A stretch of 64,000 nt of DNA from Kutzneria sp. (GTDB taxonomy: Bacteria; Actinomycetota; Actinomycetes; Mycobacteriales; Pseudonocardiaceae). The stretch covers positions 1 to 64,000 of the forward strand of contig JAFAZC010000190.1 in the NCBI GenBank assembly GCA_019239965.1, read 5' to 3'. The notes beneath the pieces were generated by a model. It had not been told where the DNA came from and did no database searches. It saw nothing but the letters and a program-made list of their open reading frames with translations. Shown one piece after another: positions 10,340 to 26,722 of this stretch. Made by a program: the position numbers and the translations under genes. How positions within the stretch are numbered: position 1 is the stretch's first letter; every line of letters starts with the position of its first letter.

Positions 10340-11146
10340 TCACTGCGGCTCGCTGGCCTGGTGCCCCAATGCCAGTTCCTCGATCAGCCGGGCGGCCGGC
10401 AACTGAGCGTCCGACATGCGCACGGCGCGTGTACGTTGCAGCTCAAGCACGTCGTAGTAGGCACCCTTCCCGATCTCCTCGGCTCCCACCGAAGCGGCCG
10501 TAGGACTCATCATCTGCGCATCGAGCAACTCACCGCCAGCGGCCAACATTCGCGCCAGGGTGTCGAGTACGGCCACCTTGCCCGCATGTGACTGGACAAA
10601 AAACGCCGACTCCCAGCTGAAGATGCCGCCCACCTGCACGCCCATGCTTCCACCGACGAGGTTTTCGTTCTCCCAGACTTCAATGCTGTGGGCGTAACCT
10701 CGTCGATGCAGCTCCAAGAACGCCTCCGCCATACGGTTCGAAAGCCACGACTCGGCTCCACGCTCTGGACCGCACTTCTTCACGACGCTGTCGAAGCACC
10801 GGTCGACAGTGGTCGTCCAGCCTTTCTGGCGGATGACTCTGCGAAGTGTCTGGCCGGCCTTGGCACTGTGTCGGCTGATCACGGCCCTCGGATCGCGCGA
10901 CCACCACGTCAGGGAGAAGTCCGGGTTTCCAGGCGACATGCTCCGGATGGTTCCATCTCGCAAGGATTCACCGAAGCGGTCCTCGAAGAGGTCATCGAGC
11001 TCTTCCTGAATCGGAGGATATGGATAAAGTCCGTTCATGTAGGCTGAGATGAGTGTGTCGGGGTTCAGGTCCGCACCAACGGCCACCGGTCCAACTCCCG
11101 GTGAGTTTCTCCAGTCAACACTGTCCCAAATGCTGCCCTCGTTCAT
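10340..11146 (-). CDS. leucyl/phenylalanyl-tRNA--protein transferase-like (Aat family)
   Basis: A 268-aa member of the Aat/GNAT-fold family, which moves Leu, Phe or Met from aminoacyl-tRNA to an acceptor amine. Seen here: WWSRDPRAVI, the GYAHSIEVWENENLVGGSMGV core, FSWESAFF in place of the usual F-GESMF, and AQMMSPTAASVGA in place of the usual (I/L)D-Q...HL-SLGA. The last two replacements suggest altered substrate use. The sequence is clearly less GC-rich than its surroundings. It lies 70 bp downstream of the MFS exporter on the same strand, so both probably form one operon at the left edge of the peptide cluster. Aat is normally a protein-degradation (N-degron) enzyme; in a biosynthetic cluster it may aminoacylate the natural product or its precursor. 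That role is inference. Confidence 0.82.
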   Translation of the reverse strand: MNEGSIWDSVDWRNSPGVGPVAVGADLNPDTLISAYMNGLYPYPPIQEELDDLFEDRFGESLRDGTIRSMSPGNPDFSLTWWSRDPRAVISRHSAKAGQTLRRVIRQKGWTTTVDRCFDSVVKKCGPERGAESWLSNRMAEAFLELHRRGYAHSIEVWENENLVGGSMGVQVGGIFSWESAFFVQSHAGKVAVLDTLARMLAAGGELLDAQMMSPTAASVGAEEIGKGAYYDVLELQRTRAVRMSDAQLPAARLIEELALGHQASEPQ

Positions 11147-11216
11147 GTGCTGACCTCCGCTCGTTGGGTGACGAAAAGGGATTTACTCGTTGATTCGACG
11201 TGGTTGGGATGGAGGA

Positions 11217-12440
11217 TCAGCTCACGTCCGCTAGGGTCTGTCTGGACATGCTCCGCACATCGCGGAGAAGCATTACCGCAATCGTTGAGAGCGTGATGAA
11301 CAGGCTGATCACCACAAGACTTGGCTGCAATCCGAAATGCTCTTCAAGTGGGCCCGCGATAACTCCACCAAGCGGCGCGAAAGCGATTGAACAGAACATG
11401 TCGTAACTCGCTACCCGCGACATCTTCGCCTGGGATACCTCCTGGCGCAGCGCGGCCAACCAGCATACCCCGTAGATTTCATCACCAACCCCACCCGCCA
11501 AAGACGCCGTCGCCGCTAACGGAAGTGGAAGACCGAAGATCAAAGCGCACGGCAGCAGCACGAACAGAAGGCTTGCCGCGTTTCCGAACAGCAGAAGCTT
11601 CCTCGGCCTGAGTCTGGTCATCGCCAAGCCGCCGATCATGAAGCCGACAGTCTGAAATGTCAGCACCAGCCCCCATCCGGCTGCGCCCCAGGGGCTGGAT
11701 CTGGCGTATATAGGTCCCAGTACGCCCATGAAACCCACGACCATGGCATTAACCAGAGACATCTGAAGAACCATGGCCCAGAGCCAGCGAAAGCGTATGA
11801 ACTCTTGCCATCCTGTACGCATGTTCAGCCAGAGGTTCTCCCTCTTGTCAACATTGGCAACCGCTGGAAGCAGCAGTCCCAGGCGCAGGATAGCGGCGGG
11901 GACGAAAACGATGCCACAGCAGATAAGCCCCAGCGCTGGGCCGCAGAGGGCCACTATGCCACCGCCGATCCCGGCGCCAATGATTTGCCCAGAATTCTGA
12001 ATGAGGCGCAGTGTGGCCAAAGACTTTTCCGGGTTCTCTGCATCAATGATCTGCAGATTCGCTGCCTCGGCCGCCGGATAGTAGAAGGCGGTGGCAGTGC
12101 CAGCCGCAAAGGACAGGGCGCACATGACGACAATGTTGTGCCAGCCTTGCTGTAGCGCCAGCCCGAAACACATGAACGAGACGGCACTGACCAGATTGGA
12201 CGCGACCATCATGGACTTGCGTGAAATGCGGTCGCCGATCGCGCCAGCGTAGAGGACAAACACGATGACAGGAGCTGTCCGCGCAGCAGTGACAAGCCCC
12301 ACGTCACTTGCCGAGCCGCCGGCCTGAAGTACGGCGAAAGCGAAGGCGATAGGTCCGGCGTTGATACCTATCGTTGAAATCGCCGTACTGAATGCCTGGA
12401 TGCGAAAATTCCAACTGGCCCAGGCTGGGAAACTCGCCAC
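11217..12440 (-). CDS. MFS transporter, probable peptide-product exporter
   Basis: A 407-aa major facilitator protein with about twelve hydrophobic segments and the MFS loop GDRISRKSMMVASN after the second segment. It resembles the enterobactin/antibiotic exporter (EntS-like) group. The start is GTG 12440, preceded by the purine-rich GGGAAGGGCAGGCAAGG leader. GC content is lower than in the NRPS genes. It is the first gene of a leftward pair with the Aat-type transferase and reads away from the biosynthetic run, sharing the 575-bp intergenic region. The likely job is export of the peptide product and so self-protection; the substrate is inferred from position only. Confidence 0.85.
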   Translation of the reverse strand: MASFPAWASWNFRIQAFSTAISTIGINAGPIAFAFAVLQAGGSASDVGLVTAARTAPVIVFVLYAGAIGDRISRKSMMVASNLVSAVSFMCFGLALQQGWHNIVVMCALSFAAGTATAFYYPAAEAANLQIIDAENPEKSLATLRLIQNSGQIIGAGIGGGIVALCGPALGLICCGIVFVPAAILRLGLLLPAVANVDKRENLWLNMRTGWQEFIRFRWLWAMVLQMSLVNAMVVGFMGVLGPIYARSSPWGAAGWGLVLTFQTVGFMIGGLAMTRLRPRKLLLFGNAASLLFVLLPCALIFGLPLPLAATASLAGGVGDEIYGVCWLAALRQEVSQAKMSRVASYDMFCSIAFAPLGGVIAGPLEEHFGLQPSLVVISLFITLSTIAVMLLRDVRSMSRQTLADVS

Positions 12441-12510
12441 CCTTGCCTGCCCTTCCCCCCTCGGTTGGCCATGTCAGCAACGGTTGACCGGAGTTTACGG
12501 TAGGGGACAA

Positions 12511-12553
12511 GCCTCCAGCCTGACCAGCGAGACGGTCCCGTCAGCCTGGAGGC
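12511..12553. repeat. hairpin in the MFS leader (14-bp arms)
   Basis: Inverted repeat with arms GCCTCCAGCCTGAC (12511-12524) and GTCAGCCTGGAGGC (12540-12553), 13 of 14 positions paired, with a 15-nt loop. It lies 71 bp upstream of the MFS start codon and would be in its mRNA leader if transcription starts near 12850. It could be an operator or an attenuator hairpin. No U-tract follows on either strand. Confidence 0.5.
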
Positions 12554-12864
12554 CGTCAACGTTCACCGGGCCGCGACATGCCGAACGACAACCACGGCAC
12601 CGAACACAGTTGACCTCACTCGACGCGGACGAACCGCTGTCGAGGATGAAGGGCACGTGGATTTGCCTGGTCGAGCGCGACGGCTGATCAAAAACGGGCC
12701 AAGCTTGTGCACAGTTGACATCAGAGTGTTCTTGGGATCGGGCCGGACGGTCCCATGCCTACGGGGTGGTTCGCGCATTGAGTGCGGCGGCGACCCCCAT
12801 GGTCACTTGTTGATCCCTTTGGCGTCGACGAACGCATGGTTGGCACGCGCTTTCCGTTAAGAAA

Positions 12865-12892
12865 ACTGAGTGTGATATACATCACATTCAGT
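12865..12892. promoter_or_regulatory. CRP/GlxR-type operator palindrome
   Basis: A 28-bp inverted repeat: ACTGAGTGTGAT, four bases, ATCACATTCAGT (11 of 12 positions symmetric). The inner 16 bp, TGTGATATACATCACA (12871-12886), match the CRP consensus TGTGA-N6-TCACA fully, and also the actinobacterial GlxR/Crp form with central TA. It sits between the exporter operon and the biosynthetic operon, 123 bp before the first biosynthetic frame. Binding by a CRP-family protein is inferred. Confidence 0.68.
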
Positions 12893-13014
12893 GTTGTGGA
12901 TCGGGTTGCGTGCATGAGGATGCTGTCCGGGTAGGGGGCTCAGGGTTGATGTGTTCCTTCGATTTTTTGCGGATTCAATAGCATCGTCGACGCGCGTTTA
13001 TTGGCGCTCTCGGG

Positions 13015-14478
13015 GTGATGTGCATGATTCGCGGTGAGATTTATGACGCCTGTTCCACTTTTACACAGCCGTTGTCAACTGAGTGCATTGACAGATCGTT
13101 GATCGCCGGGGGCAGTGCCGAACGAGCCGTGTCAACGGAGGCCGTCTACAACTACGTGCGTGAGCGCGAGTCCAACGCTCGCACCTATGCCGACAAGTTG
13201 GACCGCGTCATCGAGCGTGGCTCGCTGGCGCGGGTGTGGGATAGCGAGGGGCGGGAGTATCTGGACTGCCTCTCGGTCGCGGGCACGTTGGCCTTGGGGC
13301 ACAACCATCCCATCGTCATCGAAGCGGTCCTGGACTTCATCGCTTCCGGCCAGGTGCAGCAGGCCCTCGATCTGACGACGCCGGCCAAGTACCGGTTCTT
13401 GCGCCAGTTGTTCGACGTCTTCCCCGCGGACTTCGGCGCCACCGCGAAGGTTCAGTTCTGCGGGCCCTCCGGCGCGGACGCGACGGAGGCGGCGGTCAAA
13501 CTGTTCAAGACCGCTACCGGCAGGCGCACGGTGATCGCCTTCCATGGCGCCTATCACGGCATGACGGCAGGATCCTTGAGCCTGACCGGCAACCTGGTCG
13601 CCAAGCGGTCCGTGGCCTCGCTCATGCCGGACACCCATTTCCTGCCCTATCCCGACAGCTATCGCTGCCCGTTCGGCCTTGGCGGGGAAGCCGGGGTGCG
13701 GGCCAATCTGCACTATCTGGAGCGCGTTCTCACTGATCCGGACAGCGGCATCACGAAGCCCGCGGCTGTCTTCGTCGAAGCCGTGCAGGGCGAAGGCGGG
13801 GTGATCCCGGCACCGCCTTCCTGGCTGCGCGGCCTGCGGGAGCTGACCGCCCGGCTGGACATCCCACTCGTGCTCGACGAGATCCAGACCGGGTTCGGTC
13901 GTACCGGCACCATGTTCGCGTTCGAGGAAGCGGGTATCCGACCGGACGCCGTGCTGATCTCGAAGGCTGTGGGGGGTGGTTTTCCCCTCGCGCTCGTTGC
14001 CTACGACGCCCGCTACGACGCCTGGTCACCCGGTGCGCACGCGGGCACGTTCCGTGGCAACCAGATCGCCATGGTCGCGGGTGCCACCACGATCTCGGTG
14101 ATCCGGGACGAGAACCTGGTGCACGCCGCGGTGGCCAAGGGAAAGCTGATCGGCGCCGGACTCGGTGAACTCGCCGATCGTCATCCCGAGATCGGCGATG
14201 TGCGTGGCCGTGGCCTGATGTGGGGCGTCGAGATAGTGGATCCGCGGCTGCCTGCCGACGCGTTGGGCGCCCATCCCGCCGATGGCGAGCGCGCCGCCGA
14301 AATCGGGCGCCGCTGTCTGGAACTGGGGCTGATCGTCGAACGCGGCGGGCGCCACGGCGCCGTGCTGCGTCTGTTGCCTCCGTTGGTCATCACCGAGGGT
14401 GAAGTTGAGGAGATGATTTCGAAACTCGGGATGGCGCTGGTCGCAAAGCCGCAGGGCAGCGGCAGAAGTGGACGGTGA
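13015..14478 (+). CDS. dat: L-2,4-diaminobutyrate:2-oxoglutarate aminotransferase
   Basis: A class III PLP aminotransferase (487 aa as drawn) that makes L-2,4-diaminobutyrate from aspartate semialdehyde and glutamate. It shows the Dat/EctB-type sequence throughout: RESNARTY, LDCLSVAGTLALGHNHP, QFCGPSGADATEAA, PYPDSYRCPFG, VQGEGGVIPAP and the PLP lysine in ISKAVGGG (about K317). It is the first gene of the rightward biosynthetic run. The start is unsure: the first 38 residues from GTG 13015 (ATG 13018 and 13024 are also possible) have no family counterpart, and GTG 13129 would begin just before homology. It supplies Dab, either as an NRPS monomer or for modification by the carbamoyltransferase homologue downstream. 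Confidence 0.9.
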   Translation: MMCMIRGEIYDACSTFTQPLSTECIDRSLIAGGSAERAVSTEAVYNYVRERESNARTYADKLDRVIERGSLARVWDSEGREYLDCLSVAGTLALGHNHPIVIEAVLDFIASGQVQQALDLTTPAKYRFLRQLFDVFPADFGATAKVQFCGPSGADATEAAVKLFKTATGRRTVIAFHGAYHGMTAGSLSLTGNLVAKRSVASLMPDTHFLPYPDSYRCPFGLGGEAGVRANLHYLERVLTDPDSGITKPAAVFVEAVQGEGGVIPAPPSWLRGLRELTARLDIPLVLDEIQTGFGRTGTMFAFEEAGIRPDAVLISKAVGGGFPLALVAYDARYDAWSPGAHAGTFRGNQIAMVAGATTISVIRDENLVHAAVAKGKLIGAGLGELADRHPEIGDVRGRGLMWGVEIVDPRLPADALGAHPADGERAAEIGRRCLELGLIVERGGRHGAVLRLLPPLVITEGEVEEMISKLGMALVAKPQGSGRSGR

Positions 14479-14607: not shown

Positions 14608-15630
14608 ATGTTGAGTGCCGATTACGAGCACGACTTCGACACCGAGTGCGCGACCGCCGGTGAGGCGCCGAGGATCGCCGCCGCGGCGGCGCTGCTGGAG
14701 ATGGGAGACCGGCTCGGCCTCGTTTCCTTGATCGCGACCGGTGACGAGGTGACCGTCGAGTCGCTGGCCAAAGCCGCGGACCTGCCGGAGTCCGGTGTGG
14801 CCGGTTACTGCGAGGCCTTGGAGTCCGCCGCCATCATCGTTCCGGTCGGGACCTCAGGCACGGTGTTCCGGGCGGCGGACGACTTCGCGACAATCCGCCA
14901 CCAGGCGGGCTTCGTGTCCTGGACGATGAACGCCAACCGGCCGTTCATCGAGAACGCCCGCGCATTTCTCACAGACCCGTCTCGAGGGACTGGCATCGAC
15001 ATGCGCGACGGCCGCGAGGTCGCGGTCAGCTCCGAGTGGATGGGCTCCGTGGCGTTCTACCCGGCCGCGCTGTCCACGATCCTGAGGTCGAAACCGGAGA
15101 TCGTCGTCGACCTCGGTGCCGGGACGTGCCGCCTGCTGATCGAGATTCTGCGACGGCTGCCACAGAGCCGCGCTGTGGGCCTCGACCTGGACGGGCCCTC
15201 CTGCGAGGCCGCACGGCAAGCGGCGGAGGCCGCGGTTCTGGCCGACCGGCTGCAGGTGATACACCGGTCGATCCAGTCCATTGCGGACGACCCGTCACCA
15301 TTGGAGGGTGCGGATGTCATCCACGGTGGGTTCGTATTCCACGACATGATGCCTGAGGAGGAGCAGACCGCGGACCGCGTGCTGGCCAACTGCCGTGAGG
15401 CGTTGCGGGACGGCGGGATCATGGCCATCACCGAGGCCGTCCCGTACCTGCGCAACGAGCGAGAGCGGCGTTTCAGTGCCGCGGTGACGTACTACCACCG
15501 GCAGTTCATGAAGCGCAGGCTGCTCAGCGAAGACGAATGGAAGCGCAAGCTCCGCTCGGCCGGGTTCACCCGTGTCGAATCGATCGAGCTGCCTTTCCCC
15601 ACAGGCCGCCTGTTCGTCGCAGAGCGTTGA
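14608..15630 (+). CDS. SAM-dependent C-methyltransferase, MppJ/MrsA-like
   Basis: A 340-aa methyltransferase with an N-terminal winged-helix dimerisation domain (residues 1-100) and a Rossmann SAM domain with motif I VDLGAGTCRLL near residue 166. Two histidines, H245 in FVFHDM and H297 in TYYHRQF, have nearly the same position and spacing as the iron-ligand histidines reported for MppJ, the phenylpyruvate beta-C-methyltransferase. That makes an alpha-keto-acid C-methyltransferase the leading idea over an ordinary O-methyltransferase. The branched-chain aminotransferase at 29168 would then convert the methylated keto acid to the amino acid. ATG 14608 follows a GGGGGGT site. The substrate is unknown. 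Confidence 0.75.
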   Translation: MLSADYEHDFDTECATAGEAPRIAAAAALLEMGDRLGLVSLIATGDEVTVESLAKAADLPESGVAGYCEALESAAIIVPVGTSGTVFRAADDFATIRHQAGFVSWTMNANRPFIENARAFLTDPSRGTGIDMRDGREVAVSSEWMGSVAFYPAALSTILRSKPEIVVDLGAGTCRLLIEILRRLPQSRAVGLDLDGPSCEAARQAAEAAVLADRLQVIHRSIQSIADDPSPLEGADVIHGGFVFHDMMPEEEQTADRVLANCREALRDGGIMAITEAVPYLRNERERRFSAAVTYYHRQFMKRRLLSEDEWKRKLRSAGFTRVESIELPFPTGRLFVAER

Positions 15631-15700
15631 TCGACTCGACCCGTGGAGACCACATGGCCACGACAGTGAATCGTGGGCCTTCGACCGGCCGGTGCGACCG

Positions 15701-16966
15701 ATGACCGCCTCGAAGGACACCGCGGTGCGCTGCCCGTTCGCGGCAGGTGGGGACGTCGACCTCGTCGACCCCGATCTGTACGGCAACGGCGACCCGCACA
15801 CGGTCTGGGCAGAGCACCGGCGGACCGCCCCGGTGCGGTGGCAGCCGGTCGGCGCCGACCGGGGTTTCTGGTCGGTGACCAGATACGCGGACATCAGTCG
15901 TGTGTTGCGCGAGCACGAGACGTTCAGCTCGCAGCAGGGGACATTGCTGAACCTGCTCGGTGCGGGCGACCCCGCGAGCGGCAGCCAGCTGGCGGTCACC
16001 GATCCACCGCGGCACAGCGAGATGCGCGAGCCGCTGCAGCGCGCGCTGTCGATTCGGGCGATCGACCACTACCAGGCCGACATTCGCGCGCTGGTGGCCG
16101 GGCTGGTGGCGCCGCTGGCCGACGGCGGTCCGTTCGACCTCGCCGCGGCGATGGCCAGCCTCCCGATGGCCGTCACCGGGACGATGATGGCCATTCCCCG
16201 CGAGGACTGGCCGCTGCTGACCAGGGCGGCTACCGCCGCGCTCGCCGCCGACGATCCGGCCTACCAGGTCCGAGGTGGTCCGGAGGCGACGCTGCGCCGG
16301 TCGCACCGGGAGATCTTCGCCTACTTCCAGGACGTCGTCACGAGCCGCCGCAAGCACCCCGGTGACGACCTGATCGGCACGCTGCTTGGCATTCGGATGG
16401 ACGGGCGGGGCCTGAGCGACGGCCAGATCACGGCCAACTGCTACAGCCTGCTCATCGGAGCGATCGTGACGACCCCGCAGGTTGTCTCATCGGCCGTCGC
16501 ACGGCTGGCGGGCACCGGCGATCTGGACCGGTGGGCGGCCGACCCCAGCCTGATGAACACCGCCGTCGAGGAAGCGGTCCGGTGGGCGTCGCCCACCAAC
16601 CACTTCATGCGCTATGCGTTGCGCGACACCGAACTCGCCGACGTGGCGATCCGCGCGGGTGACGCGGTGGTCGTGTGGCTGGGCTCGGCAAACCGGGACG
16701 AGCGGGTCTTCCCCGATCCGTTCCACTTCGACATCGCACGCAAGCCGAACAAGCACATCGCGTTCGGTGTCGGTCCGCACTACTGCATCGGTCACACGAT
16801 CGCCCGGGTGACCCTGCGGATCGCGTTCGCCGAGCTGCTCGGCCGGTTCACCGGGTTGGAGCTGGCGGCGGAACCGGTGCGGTTGCGCTCGAACATCATC
16901 GCCGGCATCCGTGAGCTTCGGATCACGGGACGCCGGAGACCGGTACCGGCCGCGATCACAGGTTGA
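15701..16966 (+). CDS. cytochrome P450 with altered I-helix
   Basis: A 421-aa soluble bacterial P450. The haem-ligand loop is FGVGPHYCIGHTIAR with Cys about residue 362. The ExxR helix is EEAVRW, and the HF-type FHFDIARKPN segment is present. The I-helix reads LLIGAIVTT, so the acidic residue normally preceding the conserved Thr pair (AG-D/E-TT) is Val256. Such changes occur in P450s acting on carrier-bound or unusual substrates and can alter proton delivery. ATG 15701 is chosen; the longer frame has no homology. The gene ends 13 bp before the AurF-like gene and is in the biosynthetic operon. It probably oxidises an amino-acid precursor or the peptide. Confidence 0.87.
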   Translation: MTASKDTAVRCPFAAGGDVDLVDPDLYGNGDPHTVWAEHRRTAPVRWQPVGADRGFWSVTRYADISRVLREHETFSSQQGTLLNLLGAGDPASGSQLAVTDPPRHSEMREPLQRALSIRAIDHYQADIRALVAGLVAPLADGGPFDLAAAMASLPMAVTGTMMAIPREDWPLLTRAATAALAADDPAYQVRGGPEATLRRSHREIFAYFQDVVTSRRKHPGDDLIGTLLGIRMDGRGLSDGQITANCYSLLIGAIVTTPQVVSSAVARLAGTGDLDRWAADPSLMNTAVEEAVRWASPTNHFMRYALRDTELADVAIRAGDAVVVWLGSANRDERVFPDPFHFDIARKPNKHIAFGVGPHYCIGHTIARVTLRIAFAELLGRFTGLELAAEPVRLRSNIIAGIRELRITGRRRPVPAAITG

Positions 16967-16979
16967 CGAAAGGGGGGTC

Positions 16980-17894
16980 ATGCGCGCGTTCAATTCCTGG
17001 TACGAGGACGCTGGTGTCCGCGTTGGACCGCGCCGGAAACCAGGGGACGACCTCGGGAAGAAGTTCTTCCCGGACCATCTCATCCCGCACCTGGGACATC
17101 CGTTGGTGCAGGCCCTGCCCGATGAGCTGCGTCGGTACCTGTCCGCCCAGTACCTGTACCAGTGGCTGAACTTCACCGCGGAGTTCGAGATCGCCGTTGT
17201 CGTGCGTGCGACACAGCAGATCGCCGACGGCCGCAGCGGTGTGTCGCTGGAACGGGAACTGCGGCGGGACGCGATGCGGATCTGCGTTGACGAGCAGTAC
17301 CACGCCCTCCACAGCGTGGATGTCGTCGACCAGGTCGAGAACAGCGCGGGCATTCCATCGTTGCCATACGACTTCGCGCCGTTCCTCGCGCATCTGGACG
17401 GCATCGGGGAGAGCTACCCGGGGCACCGCAAGCTGGTCCAGTTGCTGCAGGTCGTCGTGTTCGAAACGCTGATCACCTCGCTCATCGAGGATGTTCCGAA
17501 GGACACCGAGGTGATGACCGTCGTGCGGGACACGGTGCGCGACCACGCCGAGGACGAGCGCCGCCACCACGCCTACTTCGCGCTGTTCTTCAAGGAGTTG
17601 TGGGCTCAGCTGGACCGGTCGGAGCGAGAGACGGTGTCCCGGCTGCTCCCAGACGTGATCATCAGGTCCCTACAACCCGCTACCCGCTCCGCCCGCGCCG
17701 CACTCGGCGTCGCCGGGTTCTCCCCGGCGCGGACCGACCAGATCATCGCCGAGTCCTTCGACCGCCAGTCGGTCATGGCCGGCATCACCATCGCGTCCGC
17801 CAAGACGGTGGCGCTACTGGAGCGTTGCGGGGTGCTCGACGTCCCTGGTGCGCGAGAAAGGTTCCAGAATGCAGGATTCACCACTGTCCGCTGA
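16980..17894 (+). CDS. AurF-like diiron N-oxygenase
   Basis: A 304-aa helical protein resembling the p-aminobenzoate N-oxygenase (AurF/CmlI) family, which uses a non-haem diiron centre to oxidise amines to hydroxylamine or nitro groups. Candidate iron ligands are seen in NFTAEFEIAVV, in CVDEQYHALHSVD, in VVVFETLI, and in the DHAEDERRHHAYF helix. ATG 16980 follows the AAAGGGGGG site at 16969-16977. The 3' end overlaps the carbamoyltransferase-like gene by 26 bp. In this setting the amine of diaminobutyrate or a derivative is a plausible target, but C-hydroxylation is also known for relatives, so the reaction is inferred. Confidence 0.78.
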   Translation: MRAFNSWYEDAGVRVGPRRKPGDDLGKKFFPDHLIPHLGHPLVQALPDELRRYLSAQYLYQWLNFTAEFEIAVVVRATQQIADGRSGVSLERELRRDAMRICVDEQYHALHSVDVVDQVENSAGIPSLPYDFAPFLAHLDGIGESYPGHRKLVQLLQVVVFETLITSLIEDVPKDTEVMTVVRDTVRDHAEDERRHHAYFALFFKELWAQLDRSERETVSRLLPDVIIRSLQPATRSARAALGVAGFSPARTDQIIAESFDRQSVMAGITIASAKTVALLERCGVLDVPGARERFQNAGFTTVR

Positions 17895-18840
17895 CGCCAA
17901 AGCCGGACGACCCTTGCTGTCGCTGTCCGCTCTCACCCCGGACGAGCTGGAGTTCGTTGCCGGCCTGGCGTGGGAGTTCGGCCGTGACCCCGGTCGGTTC
18001 GCGGGGCTGCTGGCGGGCGCACGGGTCGGGTTGCTATTCACCGCTCCCTCCACACGCACGCGCACGTCGTTCTGGAGCGCCGCGACAACGCTCGGCTGTC
18101 ACACGATCCACTTCGGACCGGGCGACATCCAGGTGAGTACGGGAGAGACCTGGTTCGACACCGGTTCGGTGTTCGCCACCTACCTGGACGCGGTCGTCGC
18201 CCGCACGAACGGGCCGCAGGCGGAGCTGGACGAGATGGCGACCGCGTTGCCCGCCACGGTAAACGCGCTGACCAAAGAGGAGCACCCGACCCAGTCAATC
18301 GCCGACCTGTGCGCCCTGCGCGACCACTTCGGCGCCGACACGCGGCCGCGGCTGGCCTACCTCGGGGTACTGAACAACACGGCGCGGTCACTCGCGCAGC
18401 TCGTCTCACTGCGGGACGGGATGCGGCTCGACGTCTACAGCCCCGAGGGCCACGGTCTGAGCGATGCCGAGGTCGCCACGCTGAACGAGGCGGCCAAGCG
18501 GGAGGCGGTGCGTCAGTTCGACCGCGTTCCGCAGACGCCCGATCCCGTCGACGCCGTCTACACCTGCCGGTGGCAGTCGATGGGGTCCGCGCCCGAGGGT
18601 GCGGGCGAGGGATGGGAGAAGGCGTTCCGGCCGTTCGCGGTCACGCGCCACACCCTGCGGCTCTTCGGTGGCGGATCGGAGGCCGTGTTCCTGCATGACC
18701 TGCCCGCGAGCCGTGACAAGGAGGCCACCTCCGAGGTACTCGACGGCGACCGTTCGCTGGTGGCCAGGCAGGTCTTCCACAAGACGTCGGCGGCCGCCGC
18801 CGCGCTGATGTGGGCCCTGCGCGGGCGTGACATCGGCTGA
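17869..18840 (+). CDS. ornithine/aspartate carbamoyltransferase-like protein
   Basis: A 323-aa member of the transcarbamylase family. The carbamoyl-phosphate site is intact (PSTRTRTSF near residue 60; HPTQS near residue 139). The amino-acid site differs: the OTC motif HCLP is HDLP at about 276-279 and the SMG loop is QSMGSA, so the acceptor is probably not ornithine. ATG 17869 has AAAGG eight bases upstream. By analogy with VioL/CmnL, which carbamoylate a diamino acid in viomycin and capreomycin biosynthesis, it may carbamoylate the diaminobutyrate made by Dat to give a ureido amino acid. An arginine-synthesis role is unlikely in this location. Confidence 0.83.
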   Translation: MQDSPLSADAKAGRPLLSLSALTPDELEFVAGLAWEFGRDPGRFAGLLAGARVGLLFTAPSTRTRTSFWSAATTLGCHTIHFGPGDIQVSTGETWFDTGSVFATYLDAVVARTNGPQAELDEMATALPATVNALTKEEHPTQSIADLCALRDHFGADTRPRLAYLGVLNNTARSLAQLVSLRDGMRLDVYSPEGHGLSDAEVATLNEAAKREAVRQFDRVPQTPDPVDAVYTCRWQSMGSAPEGAGEGWEKAFRPFAVTRHTLRLFGGGSEAVFLHDLPASRDKEATSEVLDGDRSLVARQVFHKTSAAAAALMWALRGRDIG

Positions 18841-18886: not shown

Positions 18887-19099
18887 TTGCTCGACGAGAC
18901 CCCGTCCACCGCCGAGTTCGCGGTGGTGGTGAACGACGAGGACCAGTGGTCGATCTGGCCCGCGCACCGCACGGTGCCCGCGGGTTGGACGGCGGAGGGA
19001 ACCGTCGGTTCCCGCGGCGAGTGCATTGAACACATCGACGCTTCCTGGACCGACATCCGGTCGCGCAGCGTCCGCGACGCAGGCGGTGTGGACAGGTGA
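18887..19099 (+). CDS. MbtH-like NRPS accessory protein
   Basis: A 70-aa MbtH-family protein, a chaperone-like partner of adenylation domains. The diagnostic tryptophans and spacing are visible in QWSIWP, PAGW and IDASWTDIRS. The start is TTG 18887, 7 nt after GAAAGGAG (18872-18879); the longer frame upstream has no homology. The stop overlaps the start of the first NRPS gene (GTGA at 19096), so the two are translationally coupled. It probably serves that A domain and perhaps others, including the split one. Confidence 0.93.
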   Translation: MLDETPSTAEFAVVVNDEDQWSIWPAHRTVPAGWTAEGTVGSRGECIEHIDASWTDIRSRSVRDAGGVDR

Positions 19100-21405
19100 C
19101 CATCCAGTCCTCCGCCACCGACGCCGGGATCGACCCGGCCGGAGCCGGCGCTGTCGAGACGCTCGCAGCGCTTGTCGTGGCGCTGCACCGGCGGTCGCTT
19201 GACGAGCGCGTGGTGCTCGACTTGCACCTCGGTGACCGCTCGGGGATCGAGATCGTCGACGTGCCGAACACCGGCACGTTCGCCGGGCTGTGCGGCCGAC
19301 TGCGTGCGCATGGCGGCGACTCGGTGTCCGGTGATACCCCCGAGCCCGCGGTCCGTGTCGTCCTGCCCGGCACCACGCCCGCCCCGTCCACCTGTCCGGT
19401 CGCCGAGCTGCTCCCCAATGGTGACGGCATTCGTGTCCACGCCGGCGATCCGGCGGAGGGCTGGGACGCCGCCGAGGCCGACCTGCTCGCCGACCTCGTC
19501 GGCCGGGTGCTTGCCGCGGGTCGGGAGAATCCGCGGGTCCCGGTCACGCGGCTACGGCTCACCCGGCCCGGGGAACCCGCGTTCTGGGGAACCCCGGACG
19601 CCCCGGTGCCAGTCGAACGGCTGGAGACGCTGATCGCCAGGCACGCCGCACAGCGCCCGGACAGCCCGGCGGTGAGCTGCGGTGATGTCCGGATCAGCTA
19701 CCGGGAGCTTGACGAGCGCGCGACCGCGGGCGCCGAGGCGCTGCGCCGGGAGGGCGTCGGCCCGGACGAGGTGGTCGGACTGTTCGCCGAGCGTTCGGCG
19801 GAGCGGATCGTCGCCCTGCTCGCGATCCTCAAGGCCGGTGCGGCCTACCTCGCACTGAACCCGGATGACCCGACCTCGCGCCTGGCTGTTCAGCTGCGCG
19901 ACGCACGGGTGCGGCTCGTGGCCGCCGAGCCCGCGTTCACCGACGCCGTTCCCGGAGGCGTCGCGACGCTCCCGCTCGACGCGCTCGCCCCGCCCGCGGG
20001 CACCGCGACCGGTTCGCCGACACCCGTGGCCGCGGGCCCGGACCACCTGGCCTACGTCTGCTACACGTCCGGTTCGACGGGCGTGCCCAAGGGTGTCGGC
20101 GTGCCGCACCGTGCCGTCGCACGCCTGGTGCGCCAGCCGAACTGGGTGGATCCGCGCCCGGACGACGTGTTCCTCCAGCTGTCCCCGCTCTCGTTCGACG
20201 CGGCGACCGTCGAGATCTTCTCCGCACTGGTGAACGGTGGGCACCTGGTCGTGCTGCCGCCCGGCCGGGTGGAGCCGGACCGCCTGCGGCAGGCCGTGCG
20301 GGAGGCGGGCGTCACCGTGCTGCTGCTGCCGACCGGCCTGCTGCACTACACGATCGAGGCCAAGCCCGACACGTTCGCCGGCGTGCGGCACGTGCTGACC
20401 GGCGGCGACGTGGCGTCGGCGTCACTTGTGCGGCAGCTGTTCGCGAGCCACCCCGGCATGCTCTTCACCAACGGCTACGGCCCGACGGAGAACACCTCCT
20501 ACACGACGTGCTGGACGTCGGACGTACCGCCGGTCACGGCGAACGTGCCGATCGGTGACCCCGTCAGCGGCACGTCGGTCGCGGTGCTCGACGAGGACCT
20601 GCACGGGGTCCCGGCGGGTGTGTGCGGGCAGCTGTACGCCGCCGGAGACGGCCTGGCTCGCGGCTACCTCTCCAGTGCGGGCGCCACGGCCGACCGGTTC
20701 ATGCCGCACCCAGACGTGCCGGGGGCTCGCATGTACCGCACCGGCGACCTCGTCCGGCGGGCCGCCGACGGCACCGTCGTATTCGTCGGCCGCGCCGACG
20801 ACCAGGTCAAGGTCAACGGCTATCGGGTCGAACCGGGGGAGATCGAGGACGTGCTGCTGCGCCAGCCCGAGGTCGCGCAGGCCGCGGTCACGGTGCAGCG
20901 GAACAAGAACGGCGCGGCGTCGCTGATCGCCTACGCCGCGCCGGCATCCGCGGACGCCGACCCGATGCTCGGCGCACGGCTGCGCGACCGCCTGCGTGCA
21001 GAGCTGCCCGCCTACATGATCCCGACGGCCGTGCTGGTCCGCCCCGGGCTCGCGATCACGCCGAACGGCAAGCTGGACCGGCAAGCACTGCCCGCCGCAC
21101 ACAGGTACCCCCGCAACGTGTGGAACGACTACGTCCCACCGACGAATCCGACCGAGATCGAGTTGGCGGAGACGTGGGGTGCGCTGCTCGGCGTGGAACC
21201 GGTCGGTGTCGAGGACGACTTCTTCGAGCTCGGTGGCCACTCGCTGCTCGCTGCGGAGCTGATGGCCAAGGTGAGCCAGGACATGGGGGTGGAGGTGTCC
21301 GCCCGGACGCTCTACCTCCAGCCCACGGTTGCCGAGATGGCCGCCGCGATCGAGAACGCCGTCTCGGCGAACGGCGACGGCCGGACGGAGGAGGTGTCCG
21401 GGTGA
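19096..21405 (+). CDS. NRPS: A-PCP protein
   Basis: A 769-aa non-ribosomal peptide synthetase. Residues 1-175 form an N-terminal region with no catalytic motif, probably a degenerate condensation-domain tail or docking part. The adenylation domain follows (about 180-660) with A3 YTSGSTGVPKG near 323, A4 SFDAATVE, A5 NGYGPTEN near 460, A7 YRTGDL and A10 PNGKLDR near 656. The carrier domain has its phosphopantetheine Ser at about 716 (ELGGHSLLAA). The pocket residues read by alignment to GrsA are D-A-V-L-L-G-G-S-Y-K, suggesting a hydrophobic amino acid but not a known monomer. With no C domain it may load the first residue. GTG 19096 overlaps mbtH. Confidence 0.92.
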   Translation: MTIQSSATDAGIDPAGAGAVETLAALVVALHRRSLDERVVLDLHLGDRSGIEIVDVPNTGTFAGLCGRLRAHGGDSVSGDTPEPAVRVVLPGTTPAPSTCPVAELLPNGDGIRVHAGDPAEGWDAAEADLLADLVGRVLAAGRENPRVPVTRLRLTRPGEPAFWGTPDAPVPVERLETLIARHAAQRPDSPAVSCGDVRISYRELDERATAGAEALRREGVGPDEVVGLFAERSAERIVALLAILKAGAAYLALNPDDPTSRLAVQLRDARVRLVAAEPAFTDAVPGGVATLPLDALAPPAGTATGSPTPVAAGPDHLAYVCYTSGSTGVPKGVGVPHRAVARLVRQPNWVDPRPDDVFLQLSPLSFDAATVEIFSALVNGGHLVVLPPGRVEPDRLRQAVREAGVTVLLLPTGLLHYTIEAKPDTFAGVRHVLTGGDVASASLVRQLFASHPGMLFTNGYGPTENTSYTTCWTSDVPPVTANVPIGDPVSGTSVAVLDEDLHGVPAGVCGQLYAAGDGLARGYLSSAGATADRFMPHPDVPGARMYRTGDLVRRAADGTVVFVGRADDQVKVNGYRVEPGEIEDVLLRQPEVAQAAVTVQRNKNGAASLIAYAAPASADADPMLGARLRDRLRAELPAYMIPTAVLVRPGLAITPNGKLDRQALPAAHRYPRNVWNDYVPPTNPTEIELAETWGALLGVEPVGVEDDFFELGGHSLLAAELMAKVSQDMGVEVSARTLYLQPTVAEMAAAIENAVSANGDGRTEEVSG

Positions 21406-22130
21406 GGGTCACCTCGCGGCGCGGGCGCTGGTTCTTGCGGGAGCCGCGCACCGACGTGTCGGCCAGAGTGTTCTGCCTGCCCTACTCCGGGTGTGGCGCG
21501 ACGATGTACCGGCAGTGGCCTGAGTCGCGCGATGGCGTGGAGTTCTGCGCTGTCCAGCTCCCCGGCCGGGAGAACCGGATGCGCGAGCCCGCGTTCGACA
21601 GCTATGAGCAGCTTGCCGTCGAGCTCGCCGAGGCGCTGCGGCCTCACCTCGACGTCCCGTACGCGCTGTTTGGCCACTGCAGCTCGGCGCTGGCCGCGTT
21701 CGAGACCGCGGCGCGGCTGTGCGAGGCCGGTCCCGCGCCCGCCCGGCTGTACGTGTCTTCGGAGGTGGCCCCGCAGGACGGTCCGTACGGCTACTTCCTC
21801 GGGCTCGACGACGAGGGACTGTCGCGTGAGCTGGCCGACCTGCTCGTCGGCATGGGGGCGGAGCCGCATCCCGGGCTGATCGAGCTCACGCTCGGCGTGC
21901 TGCGCCACGACGTCGACGTCAACAAGCGTTATGTGAAGCCGGATCCGCCCCGGCTGTCGTGTCCGATCACGTCGATCGGGTGGAAGGACGACAGCGGGGT
22001 CGAGCCGCGGCTGATGGACGGCTGGTCGCGCTGCGGTGAGACCGAGACGGTGCTGCTCGACGGCGGGCACTACGAGTTCGTCGGGGCGCCGGAGGAATTG
22101 ATGGACGTGCTGGTTCGGGGAGTCCGATGA
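21402..22130 (+). CDS. type II thioesterase with cysteine in the nucleophile elbow
   Basis: A 242-aa alpha/beta-hydrolase of the discrete NRPS thioesterase family (FCLPYSG, VQLPGREN, then GGHYEF with the catalytic His). The nucleophile elbow that normally reads GHSMG is GHCSS here, putting Cys93 in the catalytic position. Most type II thioesterases use Ser and release misprimed carriers. Cys-nucleophile thioesterases are known among product-releasing domains, such as the beta-lactone-forming ObiF TE of obafluorin. It lies in the NRPS operon with 4-bp overlaps on both sides. A second, canonical type II thioesterase is present at 28398, so this one may have a different task. Confidence 0.87.
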   Translation: MRVTSRRGRWFLREPRTDVSARVFCLPYSGCGATMYRQWPESRDGVEFCAVQLPGRENRMREPAFDSYEQLAVELAEALRPHLDVPYALFGHCSSALAAFETAARLCEAGPAPARLYVSSEVAPQDGPYGYFLGLDDEGLSRELADLLVGMGAEPHPGLIELTLGVLRHDVDVNKRYVKPDPPRLSCPITSIGWKDDSGVEPRLMDGWSRCGETETVLLDGGHYEFVGAPEELMDVLVRGVR

Positions 22131-25100
22131 CGGGTGCGTCCGGCAGCCGTCTGTCCGCGGCCAAGCAGCGCTTGCTCGCCGAGCGCCGGGGGAGTGGCGT
22201 GCGTGCGGTCCCCCGGCGGGATCCGGGCATGCTGGTGGAGGCCACGCACCAGCAGCGGGCGCTGTGGTTCCTTGACCGCTACCTGGGTGCCGGCGCGAAC
22301 TCGGCCTACAACCTGCACCACGCTCTGCGGCTGCGCGGTGACCTCGACGCCGGTGTCGTGCAGGACTGTCTGCGGCAGGTCGTGGCCCGGCACGACGCGC
22401 TGCGCACCACGTTCACCGTGGACTCGGACGGCCGGCTACTGCTGCGTGTCGCGCCGCCGCCTCGTCCCGGCACGTTCACGCTGCCGGTCCGTCCGGCCGG
22501 GCCCGACCTGGCCGAGACGGTGCTGGCCGAGGCGTCGATCCCGTTCGATCTCGCCTCGGGCCCGCTCTTCCGGCCCGTGCTGTTCCAGGTAGGCGAGCGC
22601 GACCACGTGCTGCTGCTCACCGCGCACCATACGGTGTTCGATGGCGCGTCGGTCGAGCTGGTCGAGGCCGAGCTGGCCGATCTCCTCACGGGGCGCGAGC
22701 CCGCGGTGCCGCCCATCGGCTTCGCGGACTGGGCGGCCTACACCCATGGTGAGGAACACCGCGCCGCCGTCGCGCGGCGGCTCGAGGCCGCCGTCGCGCG
22801 ACTGTCCGGCGCGCCGGAGCTGCTCGACTTGCCGACCGACCGGCCGCGTGGCGTGGAGCTGTCCACTGGGGGCGACACGGTGTCGGTCCGTCTCGACGCG
22901 GCCGTCGCCGCGCGGTTGCGGGAGTTGTGCCGGACCGAGGGCGTCACACTGTTCACCGCCGTTCTGGCCGTCTACCAACTGCTGCTGTCCCGGTGGTCCG
23001 GCCAGGACGACATTTGCGTCGGCATGCCGGTGGCCGGGCGTGGGCGGGCCGAGCTGGCCGGACTTGTCGGGTGCTTCGTCTCGACCGGGGTCGCACGGAC
23101 CAGGGTGGACGGGCGGCTGACGTTCCGCTCGCTGCTGGCCGAGGCCGCCGAGGCCGTGAACTCCGCGCGGGCGGACGCCGACGTCCCGTTCGACCAAGTG
23201 GTCGCGCGGCTGCGTCCGGAGCGGGCGACCGGCTACAACCCTGTGTTCCAGGTGTTCCTGGATGTGGTCACCGATCCCGCCTCCACCGCGGACAGGTGGG
23301 GCGGCGTTGTCGCCGAGCCGCTGCCCCTGCCAGTCCGCGAGGCGAAGTTCGACCTCAGCCTCACCGTGGTCGAGCGTGCGGACGGAATGACCGCCGAGCT
23401 GACCCACCGCACGGACCTGTTCGACACCGCCACCGCCGCGCGCCTGCTCGACCAGTTCGCGGTGCTGCTGGACCAGCTCACCGCACGTCCGAACGTCCCG
23501 ATGGCCGACGTCTCGGCACTGTCCGACGCCGAGCTCGCCCGGTGGCGTGCCGACAGCAGCGGAGATGCGGTCGATGTACTTGATGTCACGCTGCCACAGG
23601 CCCTCGCCGCGGCGACCGCGACGTGGCCGGAGGCGGTCGCCGTCCGCGCCGGGAACGATTCGCTGACCTATACCGAGCTGGACCGGCGCGCCATCGCGTT
23701 AGCCCATCGCCTGGTGGCAACCGGGGCCAAGCCCGGCGCCATCGTGGCGGTCGCCGTGCCGCGGTCACTCGACCTCGCCGTCGCACTCGGCGCGGTGCTG
23801 CGCACGGGTGCGGCGTACCTTCCGCTCGACCTCGACCATCCGGCAGACCGGCTGCGCTTCGTGCTCGGCGACGCCCGCCCGGCGTGCGTCCTGACCACGA
23901 CCGCGTCGGCGCAATCGTTCGCCGGGGCGGACGTCCCGGTCCTGGAGATCGACGGAGCTCTGGACGAGCGGACCGATCAGGAGACGCTGCCCGAGCCTCA
24001 CGTGCTCGACGCCGCGTACGTCATCTACACGTCCGGCTCGACCGGCCGCCCCAAGGGGGTGGCGGTGCCACACCGGGGCATCGTCAACCGTCTGCGGTGG
24101 ATGCAGCATGCATACCGGCTCGTGCCGGGAGAACGGGTGCTGCAGAAGACGCCGACAACGTTCGACGTGTCGGCGTGGGAGCTGTTCTGGCCGCTGATCG
24201 AGGGCGCCACACTCGTGTCCGCCCCGCCCGGCGCACACCGCGACCCCCTGCAGCTGGCGCAACTCGTGGCCCGCGAGCGGATCACGACGATGCACTTCGT
24301 CCCGTCGATGCTGTGGGCGTTCCTGGAAGAGCCGGAGGCCGCACGCACCCGCGAATGCCTGCGCCGCGTGGTATGCAGCGGCGAGGAGCTGCCCGCGGCC
24401 GCGGTGGCTCGCTTCGTCGAGGTGCTGCCAGGTGTCGAGCTGCACAACCTGTACGGCCCGACCGAGGCGTCGGTCGACGTCACCGCGTGGGAGTGCGGGC
24501 CGGACGACACCGCCGCGGCGCCGCCGATCGGGCGTCCGGTGTGGAACACCGGCGCGCGGGTGCTCGATGAACGCCTCGGCCCGGTGCCGGTCGGCGTGGC
24601 CGGGGAGCTCTACCTGTCCGGCGTCCAGCTCGCGTTGGGCTACCACCGGCGGCCGGGCCTGACCGCCGAGCGGTTCCTGCCCGACCCGTGGGGGCCGCCC
24701 GGCAGTCGCATGTACCGCACCGGCGACCTCGCGCGGCGGCGCCCCGACGGGGCGCTCGTCTTCCTTGGTCGCGCCGACCACCAGGTCAAGCTGCACGGCC
24801 AGCGGATCGAACTCGGCGAGATCGAGCAGGTCCTGCGGGAGCACCCGGCGGTCGCCGCCGCGGCGGTCGTGGTCCGCCGCGACCGCCCAGGGGTGGAACA
24901 GCTGGTCGCCTACGTCACCGGCGCCGCTGGCGCGGCCCCGAACGGACCGGACCTGGTCGGACGGATGCGTGCCGTCCTGCCCGCGGTGATGGTGCCGGAG
25001 GAGGTGGTGGTGCTCGCCGCGTTTCCCCTCACGGCCAGCGGCAAGCTGGACCGCAAGGCCCTGCCCGCCCCGGCCGCGACCCTGTCATCGGCCAAGCAGC

Positions 25101-26722
25101 GCCTGCTCGCCGGCCGCCGCGGTCGCGCGGTGGCGCGTGACGCCCGCACCGAGGTCCTGTGCGACCTGGTCGCCCGGCTGCTCGGCCTTGACACGGTCGG
25201 ACCGGACGACGACTTCTTCCGGCTCGGCGGCGACAGCATCGGTTCCATTCGGCTCGTCAGCCTGGCGCGCCGAGCCGGCCTCGGACTCTCCGAGCGGACT
25301 GTGTTCGAGCACCGCACCCCGCGTGCGCTGGCCGCGGCGGCGACCCAGCTCACCCCGGGGACAGGACCGGACTCCGACGACGGCACCGGGGTGGTCCCGC
25401 TCACCCCCATCATGCGCTGGTGGCGGGAGGGCGGTGGCCCGGCCGCCGGGTTCCACCAGTCGGTGCTGCTGGACCTGCCGCCGGGGGCGGGGGAGCCCGC
25501 CCTGCTCGCGTTGCTCGAGGCGCTGGCCGCTCGCCACGATGTGCTTCGGGCCAGACTGGCCGGCGAGGAGCTGATCGTGCCGCCAGTGTCCGAAGTGGAC
25601 GTGGCGCCCTGGTTGACCAAGGCCGACGAGCCGTCGATCGCGCCCGGACACCCCGACCCGGCCCACGGCATGGTCCACGCCGTGTGGTCCGAACCGCTCG
25701 GGCAGCTCCTGCTGGCCGTGCACCACCTCGCCGTGGACGGCGTGTCGTGGCGGGTGTTACTCGACGACATCGCGGCCGGATGGGACGACGCCATTGCCGG
25801 ACGTCCGGTGCGGCTGCCTGGCGTGCCGACCTCGTTCCGGATCTGGGCAAACCGGCTCGCGCGGGAGACACCGACACGGCGTGCCGAGCTGGAGGTGTGG
25901 CAGCGCGTGCTGTCCGCACCCGAACCGGCCATCGGTCGTCCACTGGATCCGGCGACCGACACCGCGGGCAACGCGCGCGAGTTGGTGCACGAGTTCGAAG
26001 CCGGCGCACTGCTCAGCGTTGTACCGGACCGTTTCCGGGCCGGCGCGGACCACGTTCTGTTGTGTGCGCTCGCTTTGGCCGTCCGAGCCTGGCGCGATCG
26101 TCGACGTACGCCGTCGCAGGTCCTCCGGGTGATGGTGGAGGGCCACGGGCGGTACGACTTCGCCGAGTTCGACCTGTCCCGTACGGTCGGCTGGTTCACG
26201 GTGCGATATCCGGTGGCGCTCGACCTGGCCACCGCGGACAACACGGCGTCGGCGTTGAAGACGGTCAAGGAGCAGGTGCGGGCCCTACCGGACGGCGGTC
26301 TCGGCTATGGCCTGCTGCGCCACCTCACCGACCGCACGTTGGCCGCGCTCGACGAGCCACAGGTCGCGTTCAACTACCTGGGCCGGTTCCGGCCCGGTGG
26401 CACGGGCAGCCTCGTCGCGCTGGACGGTGGCATCCCGGACGCCACCCCGCTCGCGGCGGCGCTCGACGTGACCGCGATCGCCTGGGACCAACCGGAAGGT
26501 GTCCGGCTGCGGACGACGTTCACCTGGGCTCCGGACGTCCTGGACGAGTCGGACGTGCGCGTGCTCAGTGAGCTGTGGGTGCAGGCGCTGGCCACGGTGG
26601 CCGCGCTGGCCGACGACCCGGACACCGGCGGGGTGATGGCATCCGACGTCTTCGTCGAGATGGACCAGGACGAGCTGGACGACCTGCGACGGGAACTCGA
26701 GTCGGACCGGGGGCTGCGATGA
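22127..26722 (+). CDS. NRPS: C-A(Ser)-PCP-E
   Basis: A 1531-aa synthetase module. The condensation domain has HHTVFDG (about residue 167). The adenylation domain has A3 YTSGSTGRPKG near 634, A4 TFDVSAWE, A5 NLYGPTEA near 775 and A10 ASGKLDR. The carrier motif is RLGGDSIGS (Ser about 1037), the DS form usual before an epimerase. The C-terminal domain is an epimerisation domain with HHLAVDG (about 1199), EGHGRY (about 1338), RTVGWFT and NYLGRF. The pocket code by GrsA alignment is D-V-W-H-V-S-L-V-D-K, close to the known serine code DVWHLSLIDK, so the module should add Ser and convert it to D-Ser. It carries an unusual repeated linker AAKQRLLAERRG / AKQRLLAGRRG at its N-terminus and before the carrier. 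ATG 22127 overlaps the upstream stop. Confidence 0.94.
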   Translation: MTGASGSRLSAAKQRLLAERRGSGVRAVPRRDPGMLVEATHQQRALWFLDRYLGAGANSAYNLHHALRLRGDLDAGVVQDCLRQVVARHDALRTTFTVDSDGRLLLRVAPPPRPGTFTLPVRPAGPDLAETVLAEASIPFDLASGPLFRPVLFQVGERDHVLLLTAHHTVFDGASVELVEAELADLLTGREPAVPPIGFADWAAYTHGEEHRAAVARRLEAAVARLSGAPELLDLPTDRPRGVELSTGGDTVSVRLDAAVAARLRELCRTEGVTLFTAVLAVYQLLLSRWSGQDDICVGMPVAGRGRAELAGLVGCFVSTGVARTRVDGRLTFRSLLAEAAEAVNSARADADVPFDQVVARLRPERATGYNPVFQVFLDVVTDPASTADRWGGVVAEPLPLPVREAKFDLSLTVVERADGMTAELTHRTDLFDTATAARLLDQFAVLLDQLTARPNVPMADVSALSDAELARWRADSSGDAVDVLDVTLPQALAAATATWPEAVAVRAGNDSLTYTELDRRAIALAHRLVATGAKPGAIVAVAVPRSLDLAVALGAVLRTGAAYLPLDLDHPADRLRFVLGDARPACVLTTTASAQSFAGADVPVLEIDGALDERTDQETLPEPHVLDAAYVIYTSGSTGRPKGVAVPHRGIVNRLRWMQHAYRLVPGERVLQKTPTTFDVSAWELFWPLIEGATLVSAPPGAHRDPLQLAQLVARERITTMHFVPSMLWAFLEEPEAARTRECLRRVVCSGEELPAAAVARFVEVLPGVELHNLYGPTEASVDVTAWECGPDDTAAAPPIGRPVWNTGARVLDERLGPVPVGVAGELYLSGVQLALGYHRRPGLTAERFLPDPWGPPGSRMYRTGDLARRRPDGALVFLGRADHQVKLHGQRIELGEIEQVLREHPAVAAAAVVVRRDRPGVEQLVAYVTGAAGAAPNGPDLVGRMRAVLPAVMVPEEVVVLAAFPLTASGKLDRKALPAPAATLSSAKQRLLAGRRGRAVARDARTEVLCDLVARLLGLDTVGPDDDFFRLGGDSIGSIRLVSLARRAGLGLSERTVFEHRTPRALAAAATQLTPGTGPDSDDGTGVVPLTPIMRWWREGGGPAAGFHQSVLLDLPPGAGEPALLALLEALAARHDVLRARLAGEELIVPPVSEVDVAPWLTKADEPSIAPGHPDPAHGMVHAVWSEPLGQLLLAVHHLAVDGVSWRVLLDDIAAGWDDAIAGRPVRLPGVPTSFRIWANRLARETPTRRAELEVWQRVLSAPEPAIGRPLDPATDTAGNARELVHEFEAGALLSVVPDRFRAGADHVLLCALALAVRAWRDRRRTPSQVLRVMVEGHGRYDFAEFDLSRTVGWFTVRYPVALDLATADNTASALKTVKEQVRALPDGGLGYGLLRHLTDRTLAALDEPQVAFNYLGRFRPGGTGSLVALDGGIPDATPLAAALDVTAIAWDQPEGVRLRTTFTWAPDVLDESDVRVLSELWVQALATVAALADDPDTGGVMASDVFVEMDQDELDDLRRELESDRGLR

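Follow-up and report, generated by a model that had tools for sequence, protein, structure and literature searches.

We propose that an Aat-type gene at the edge of an NRPS cluster in Kutzneria sp. (the window, here and throughout, is the whole stretch of 64,000 nucleotides that was analysed) probably encodes an enzyme of the L/F-transferase family that is dedicated to this cluster and transfers an aminoacyl group from tRNA to one of its intermediates. Aat-family enzymes normally tag proteins with an amino acid from tRNA. The gene is present, its protein is kin to cluster-borne Aats, and it keeps the catalytic pair of the family next to an altered donor pocket. A tRNA-dependent role in the cluster, which the preliminary description of this DNA had called conceivable, has become more than that: the protein falls in a clade of cluster-borne Aats, is absent from congeners and is encoded inside an accessory stretch.

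The Aat gene and the MFS gene beside it are real, intact and read away from the NRPS cluster, as had been described and as their open reading frames and Pfam matches attest (Table 1). The Aat frame encodes 268 aa, and GGAGG, a plausible ribosome-binding site, lies 5' of its ATG. The protein matches PF03588 (Leu_Phe_trans; E 1e-44) with 152.5 bits against a curated cut-off of 22.7, and scores 131 bits with the Aat equivalog model TIGR00667, below the cut-off of 143.55; from its sequence we place it in PF03588 and in the cluster-type clade described below, outside the Aat equivalog. Both FSWESAFF and AQMMSPTAAS are found in the protein, and approximately 25 residues more than in E. coli Aat follow its YPYP motif. 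The FemAB Pfam profile had no match in the protein, which gave no sign of belonging to the FemAB/FemX family or of having its two-GNAT-domain fold. A weak structure model, built on a shallow alignment of 4 sequences (mean pLDDT 55.8), resembled FemX only faintly, at an E of about 1e-4 with 12% identity; its top Foldseek match was E. coli Aat (E 8.6e-13), the model being too weak for pocket geometry.

Table 1. Features of the stretch from the Aat gene to the extra PheRS pair, in window coordinates.
Feature	Position	Strand	Basis
Putative tRNA-dependent transferase, Aat type (L/F-transferase family), biosynthetic type	10340..11146	-	PF03588, clade, pocket table
Predicted MFS exporter	11217..12440	-	PF07690 E 6.8e-23; TIGR00900 157 bits, below cut-off
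Divergent intergenic region between MFS-Aat pair and NRPS-side genes	12441..13014	.	sequence
Diaminobutyrate--2-oxoglutarate transaminase family	13015..14478	+	TIGR00709 549 bits, above cut-off 401.6
SAM methyltransferase	14608..15630	+	Methyltransf_12 E 2.9e-13
Cytochrome P450 (longest ORF given; translation probably begins further in)	15572..16966	+	p450 E 1.6e-24
AurF-like diiron oxygenase	16911..17894	+	AurF E 3.7e-25
Ornithine/aspartate carbamoyltransferase-like protein	17848..18840	+	OTCace_N E 1.7e-29
NRPS A-T module with relic C domain in front; candidate acceptor	19096..21405	+	A 181-525, PCP 690-752
Stand-alone thioesterase (start approximate)	21402..22130	+	Thioesterase E 2.8e-25 on longer ORF 20622-22130; reading frame
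NRPS C-A-T and second condensation-type domain, read as epimerization	22127..26722	+	two Condensation stretches, A, PCP
NRPS C-T without A domain (start approximate)	26716..28401	+	Condensation, PP-binding on ORF 26575-28401
Type II thioesterase	28398..29171	+	Thioesterase E 3.7e-46
Class IV aminotransferase	29168..30292	+	PF01063 E 7.3e-31
ATP-grasp, amino-acid-ligase-like (weak)	30455..31843	+	LAL_C2 E 1.2e-4, below cut-off
N-terminal part of adenylation domain, separate gene	31840..32781	+	AMP-binding profile 1-328 of 384; stops after YGPTE motif
NRPS C, C-terminal part of A, T, TE	33479..36487	+	AMP-binding profile 340-384 only; AMP-binding_C, PCP, TE
Extra PheRS beta subunit (PheT)	36521..38938	-	33% identical to genome's other PheT
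Extra PheRS alpha subunit (PheS), altered amino-acid pocket	38948..40048	-	tRNA-synt_2d E 1e-69

The kinship of the protein carries much of the argument. A tree with housekeeping Aats, proposed in the preliminary description, was built from 45 of 51 extracted Aat proteins, six from the divergent or tandem loci L026, L027, L037 and L038 being left out. The window Aat fell into a 12-member clade (support 97/93) separate from the 33 rows of canonical type; this clade consists of eight livipeptin-like rows, L031, L036, L131 and the window protein. On this evidence the window Aat groups with livipeptin-like, phosphonate-cluster and NRPS-cluster Aats. The altered core motifs pointed out earlier are genuine departures: ESMF, a motif of the donor pocket, occurs in 33/33 canonical-type rows and in 0/12 rows of the cluster-type clade, the window protein having ESAF. 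Because the row groups had been labelled ahead of the tree, in part by neighbours and in part by motif, label and motif depend on each other to some degree; the tree itself draws on the full protein. The sister of the window Aat is L031 (97/89), both flagged as long branches by the tree program. As a separate observation, two genomes of one genus carry tandem divergent Aat paralogues (L026 9352-11052; L027 9390-10875) with motifs of the GDSVF and ADSTF/SDSTF types, in which the catalytic Gln is lost.

The window Aat was aligned with E. coli Aat (PDB 2cxa, 2dps, 2z3k), a member of the same family (aligned residues 71-238, E about 1e-33) whose numbering is used here for the pocket positions. D186 and Q188, which we take to be the catalytic pair of the E. 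coli enzyme (a literature search on Aat catalytic residues found no match), are common to both proteins and correspond to D209 and Q211 of the window protein. W111, F153, E156 and K167 are also kept, whereas M144S, G155W, M158A, F173T and H193T, together with W49Y and F177M, are changes in the window Aat. H193 is kept in 33/33 canonical and 9/9 livipeptin-like rows. The Leu or Phe side chain is described as sitting in a hydrophobic pocket of Aat (PMC4052509, accessible sections), and the pocket changes suggest that the window enzyme may have another donor or acceptor.

In seven relatives (L028, L029, L030, L032, L033, L034 and L035) the gene immediately preceding the Aat encodes an A-T protein of about 1000 aa; for the one checked with Pfam, in L029, the domains are A, PCP and an NAD-binding domain of reductase type. 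Like the livipeptin cluster, L034 has an O-methyltransferase and an acyl-CoA dehydrogenase as well. The L131 Aat has the same kind of adjoining A-T partner (46% identity), and L137, which the tree groups with the livipeptin-like Aats, has no such protein in its 20 kb. The L036 Aat is found within an extensive NRPS region, and a class IV aminotransferase nearby shares 48% identity with its window counterpart. The closest tree neighbour of the window Aat (L031/L046, genome G196) is likewise cluster-borne and has an altered motif, SVESGF, but differs in its phosphonate genes, in its FemAB-like neighbour and in having His at both Q188 and K167. In that locus (L031 8200-10243; L046 8004-19686) the Aat homologue adjoins the FemAB-like gene in a phosphonate cluster with PEP mutase, TPP decarboxylase, Fe-ADH, aldehyde dehydrogenase, enolase-like and phosphoglycerate-mutase-like genes. 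No NRPS was seen in this cluster, which perhaps makes phosphonopeptides with the help of tRNA.

The closest published system is livipeptin. According to the accessible sections of that study, an L/F-transferase homologue, a C-minus A-PCP-R protein and an N-acyltransferase are jointly needed for a protease-inhibiting fraction whose activity is abolished by RNase, the Aat homologue stands in for the missing condensation domain, and the structure of the product is unsolved (PMC10548850). The homologue, Sli0884 of Streptomyces lividans 66, resembles the window Aat in belonging to the L/F-transferase family, in being encoded in a cluster with an NRPS protein, in lying outside the housekeeping clade and in its proposed formation of an amide bond from aminoacyl-tRNA, which we propose for the window Aat as well; by this analogy the window enzyme would depend on tRNA. 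The window protein is similarly placed with cluster-borne L/F-transferases outside the housekeeping rows. The partners differ: the window has a multi-module NRPS with C domains, the MFS gene and an extra PheRS, and its motif reads SWESAFF against SADSQF in the livipeptin-like loci, a comparison that covers those loci and not the sequence of Sli0884 itself. Neither an adjacent A-PCP-R protein nor a partner N-acyltransferase, both of which were sought, was found in the scanned window genes, so the window is not a livipeptin-type system. Specifically, a reductase domain is absent from the scanned cluster genes, the neighbours of the window Aat being the MFS gene and a hexapeptide protein, and no N-acyltransferase is among the scanned genes between 13015 and 36487. 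Since livipeptin is published, the principle is known and the window represents a further variant.

The preliminary description had instead drawn on pacidamycin and valanimycin. That comparison does not carry over at the level of the enzymes: PacB (pacidamycin), VlmA (valanimycin), DhpH-C/DhpK (dehydrophos) and Orf11 (BD-12) are GNAT/FemX-type proteins with two GNAT domains, according to the accessible sections of a 2026 review of aminoacyl-tRNA-dependent natural-product enzymes, in which the terms Aat and livipeptin do not occur (PMC12945691). All of them borrow aminoacyl-tRNA to build a natural product, as proposed for the window Aat. Valanimycin and pacidamycin are thus functional analogies only, and livipeptin is the real and better precedent.

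We infer acceptor, donor amino acid and export for the window Aat as follows. The enzyme would take an aminoacyl group from a charged tRNA and join it, through an amide bond, to a free amino group on an intermediate of the cluster. As acceptor, an amino acid held on the A-T module at 19096-21405, which is without a working condensation domain, seems likeliest; alternatively, the N-terminus of the released peptide may serve, and the MFS protein probably exports the product. In the first 182 residues of the A-T protein, a profile built from 13 C-type domains weakly matches the end of a C domain (10.2 bits; the best of 200 shuffles gave 3.5), and since this match exceeds the shuffles we read the protein as a C-minus module with a relic; the livipeptin acceptor is likewise a C-minus protein. 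A starter A-T module can do without a C domain, which leaves no step clearly absent and makes the acceptor reading no more than suggestive. The second condensation-type domain of the C-A-T protein carries an E-type motif, read by eye. Of the A-domain codes, read by eye at the GrsA positions, the second alone is interpretable, as Ser-like, and we therefore name no product. One adenylation domain seems to be split over the genes at 31840-32781 and 33479-36487, which may be natural or an assembly artefact.

At the other edge of the cluster, the special PheRS reported earlier was borne out as a complete extra PheST pair, its PheS and PheT 35% and 33% identical to the other PheST of the genome. PF01409 has three matches in this genome, on contig C66 (304 bits), in the window (236) and, as a distant paralogue, on contig C147 (117). 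Each of the six congeners has one canonical PheS and one distant match, and the window type occurs in none of the six; its best relatives among 364 genomes of the class are 38-41% identical. With another PheST present and the window type absent from congeners, a mere housekeeping copy was ruled out. Compared with 17 canonical rows and T. thermophilus, from which the pocket roles are taken, the window PheS differs at 20 of 68 invariant positions, including S180T, Q183S, G282P, A314Y, F315V and G316N, and keeps R204, Q218, E220, F258, F260 and R321; positions of the amino-acid pocket are thus altered and residues of the catalytic site retained. The other PheS (C66; L165 4872-6011, the same gene in L050) has itself lost the otherwise invariant HPARTMQDTFY motif, reading HAADAIRDGFH instead. 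It differs at 4 of the 68 positions (F134L, P144A, R146D, T151G), all in or just before one motif, and shows 25 changes from the six congeners at 248 shared positions, nine of them within residues 156-176; the congeners keep the motif, and the rest of the C66 protein is well conserved. The PheS findings fit either PheRS self-protection or a dedicated synthetase; a literature search on PheRS with self-resistance and cluster found no match.

Because the pockets of the Aat and of the extra PheS are both altered, the earlier idea that Phe is the donor has become doubtful, and nothing speaks for beta-methyl-Phe, since the ketoarginine methyltransferase model, with a cut-off of 425 bits, gives the methyltransferase a score of 51. 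In a tentative reading that we regard as rather doubtful, the extra PheRS (A314Y, F315V, G316N, G282P, Q183S) would charge tRNA with a cluster-made amino acid other than Phe, and the Aat (M144S, G155W, M158A, F173T) would hand it to the NRPS-bound peptide, making both edges one tRNA-borrowing unit. Such a dedicated synthetase-transferase pair would follow the logic of VlmL/VlmA, but with members of the PheRS and Aat families.

The distribution of Aat bears on whether the gene is a housekeeping one. The window Aat is the sole PF03588 match of its own genome (4.70 Mb, 93.8% complete), and Aat was found in none of the six congeners. Counting the own genome, there are three matches among 60 relatives, 17 in 390 genomes of the family, and 179 in an even draw of 394 genomes of the class (E 1e-10; best 44% identity); by these counts Aat is patchy in these bacteria, and it is given as present in 11% of actinobacterial genomes in the accessible sections of the livipeptin study (PMC10548850). 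A scan of genome contigs for close relatives returned one locus only, in a Hellea MAG (35%), and plasmid and phage collections gave, among the matches listed, proteins of 25-33% identity, for the most part proteobacterial genes annotated as aat and remote copies in jumbo phages. It is improbable, in our judgement, that the gene is a transferred housekeeping-type Aat, tagging proteins for ClpS/ClpAP degradation and lying beside the cluster by chance. The shared Pfam family, the retained catalytic Asp and Gln, a lower GC suggestive of separate acquisition and the frequency of canonical Aat in other families of the class (the 179 genomes above) would fit this, but the tree places the protein among cluster-borne Aats, ESMF and H193 are lost, and the six congeners are without any Aat.

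The genomic setting favours a role in the cluster. To the left of the Aat gene, AlkA and Ada are 79% and 68% identical in genome G004 and occur together in one congener; to the right of the extra PheS, nrdA and nrdB are 85-91% identical in five congeners, a conservation by which the RNR genes were ruled out as cluster members. No PheS of the window kind was found in the nrdAB stretches fetched from these five. The Aat-to-PheRS stretch is thus flanked by genus-conserved genes, which puts Aat and PheRS near the outer ends of an accessory block. In the congener synteny search, which kept hits of at least 45% identity, there was no contiguous synteny across the cluster, nrdAB (five congeners) and AlkA-Ada (one) lying at different places, so that the claim of an accessory block is founded on the conserved flanks and not on an empty site. 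The own assembly measures 4.7 Mb at 94% completeness, against 10-12 Mb in the six congeners, and is strongly reduced or incompletely binned.

The AurF-like protein is found in 23 of 390 genomes at E 1e-20, the own included. Genome G140 has an AurF-like oxygenase and a carbamoyltransferase-like gene side by side in an NRPS region (L070 17541-19398; 50% and 40% identity), a hint that the two genes recur as a unit. That region is without Aat, and as its close similarity ends with these two genes it represents a different cluster; the stretches fetched from G213, G126, G003 and G005 showed AurF only. The five AurF neighbourhoods thus contain no complete sister cluster, and as no second copy of the whole cluster was found, the membership of the Aat is read from one genome.

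The coupling to an exporter claimed in the preliminary description holds as adjacency: the MFS frame is intact (407 aa), lies 70 nt upstream of Aat on the same strand, and probably forms one operon with it. Conserved coupling was not found, the window MFS having no match in the 20-kb Aat loci searched; its relatives in the family, which at E 1e-50 occur in 122 of 366 genomes with the own counted, are at best 38-40% identical. A gap of 574 nt separates the pair from the oppositely reading diaminobutyrate transaminase gene, and no convincing sigma-70 site was seen within it. The operon-like pairing, its divergence from the biosynthetic genes and its position at the cluster edge could also speak for self-protection, in which the Aat would block the free amine of a toxic product, still inside the cell, with a tRNA-borne amino acid and the masked form would leave through the MFS protein; we think this unlikely, as no unmasking peptidase was identified and the pairing is not conserved in other Aat loci.

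The lower GC noted earlier for both genes is real but is part of a lower-GC left edge. The NRPS genes have 70-74% GC, whereas Aat has 61.2% (GC3 0.73) and the MFS gene, whose codon fit is poor, 58.7% (GC3 0.68); the left-flank genes at 4280-6372 and 9494-10078 are lower as well (64-66%, GC3 0.74-0.76), and it is the MFS gene that stands out most. Since GC and codon fit are lowest in MFS and low in Aat, both may have been acquired separately from the NRPS core. That the Aat has no role here and is what remains, neutral or in decay, of another cluster of livipeptin-like type is very unlikely, for although its GC is lower and its codon fit poorer than in the NRPS genes, its branch long and the A-T-R partner absent, the frame is intact, a ribosome-binding site is present, and catalytic and fold positions are kept.

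The missing livipeptin hallmarks, the long-branch placement, the change of H193 to Thr and the membership seen in one genome count against a cluster-dedicated aminoacyltransferase, the reading that we nevertheless prefer. If it is true, an enzyme of protein-degradation tagging would have been recruited in antibiotic biosynthesis more widely than the single livipeptin system suggests, and such recruitment would include multi-module NRPS and phosphonate clusters. Cluster-type Aat genes are easily dismissed as housekeeping, and loss of ESMF may provide a simple marker with which to mine for them.
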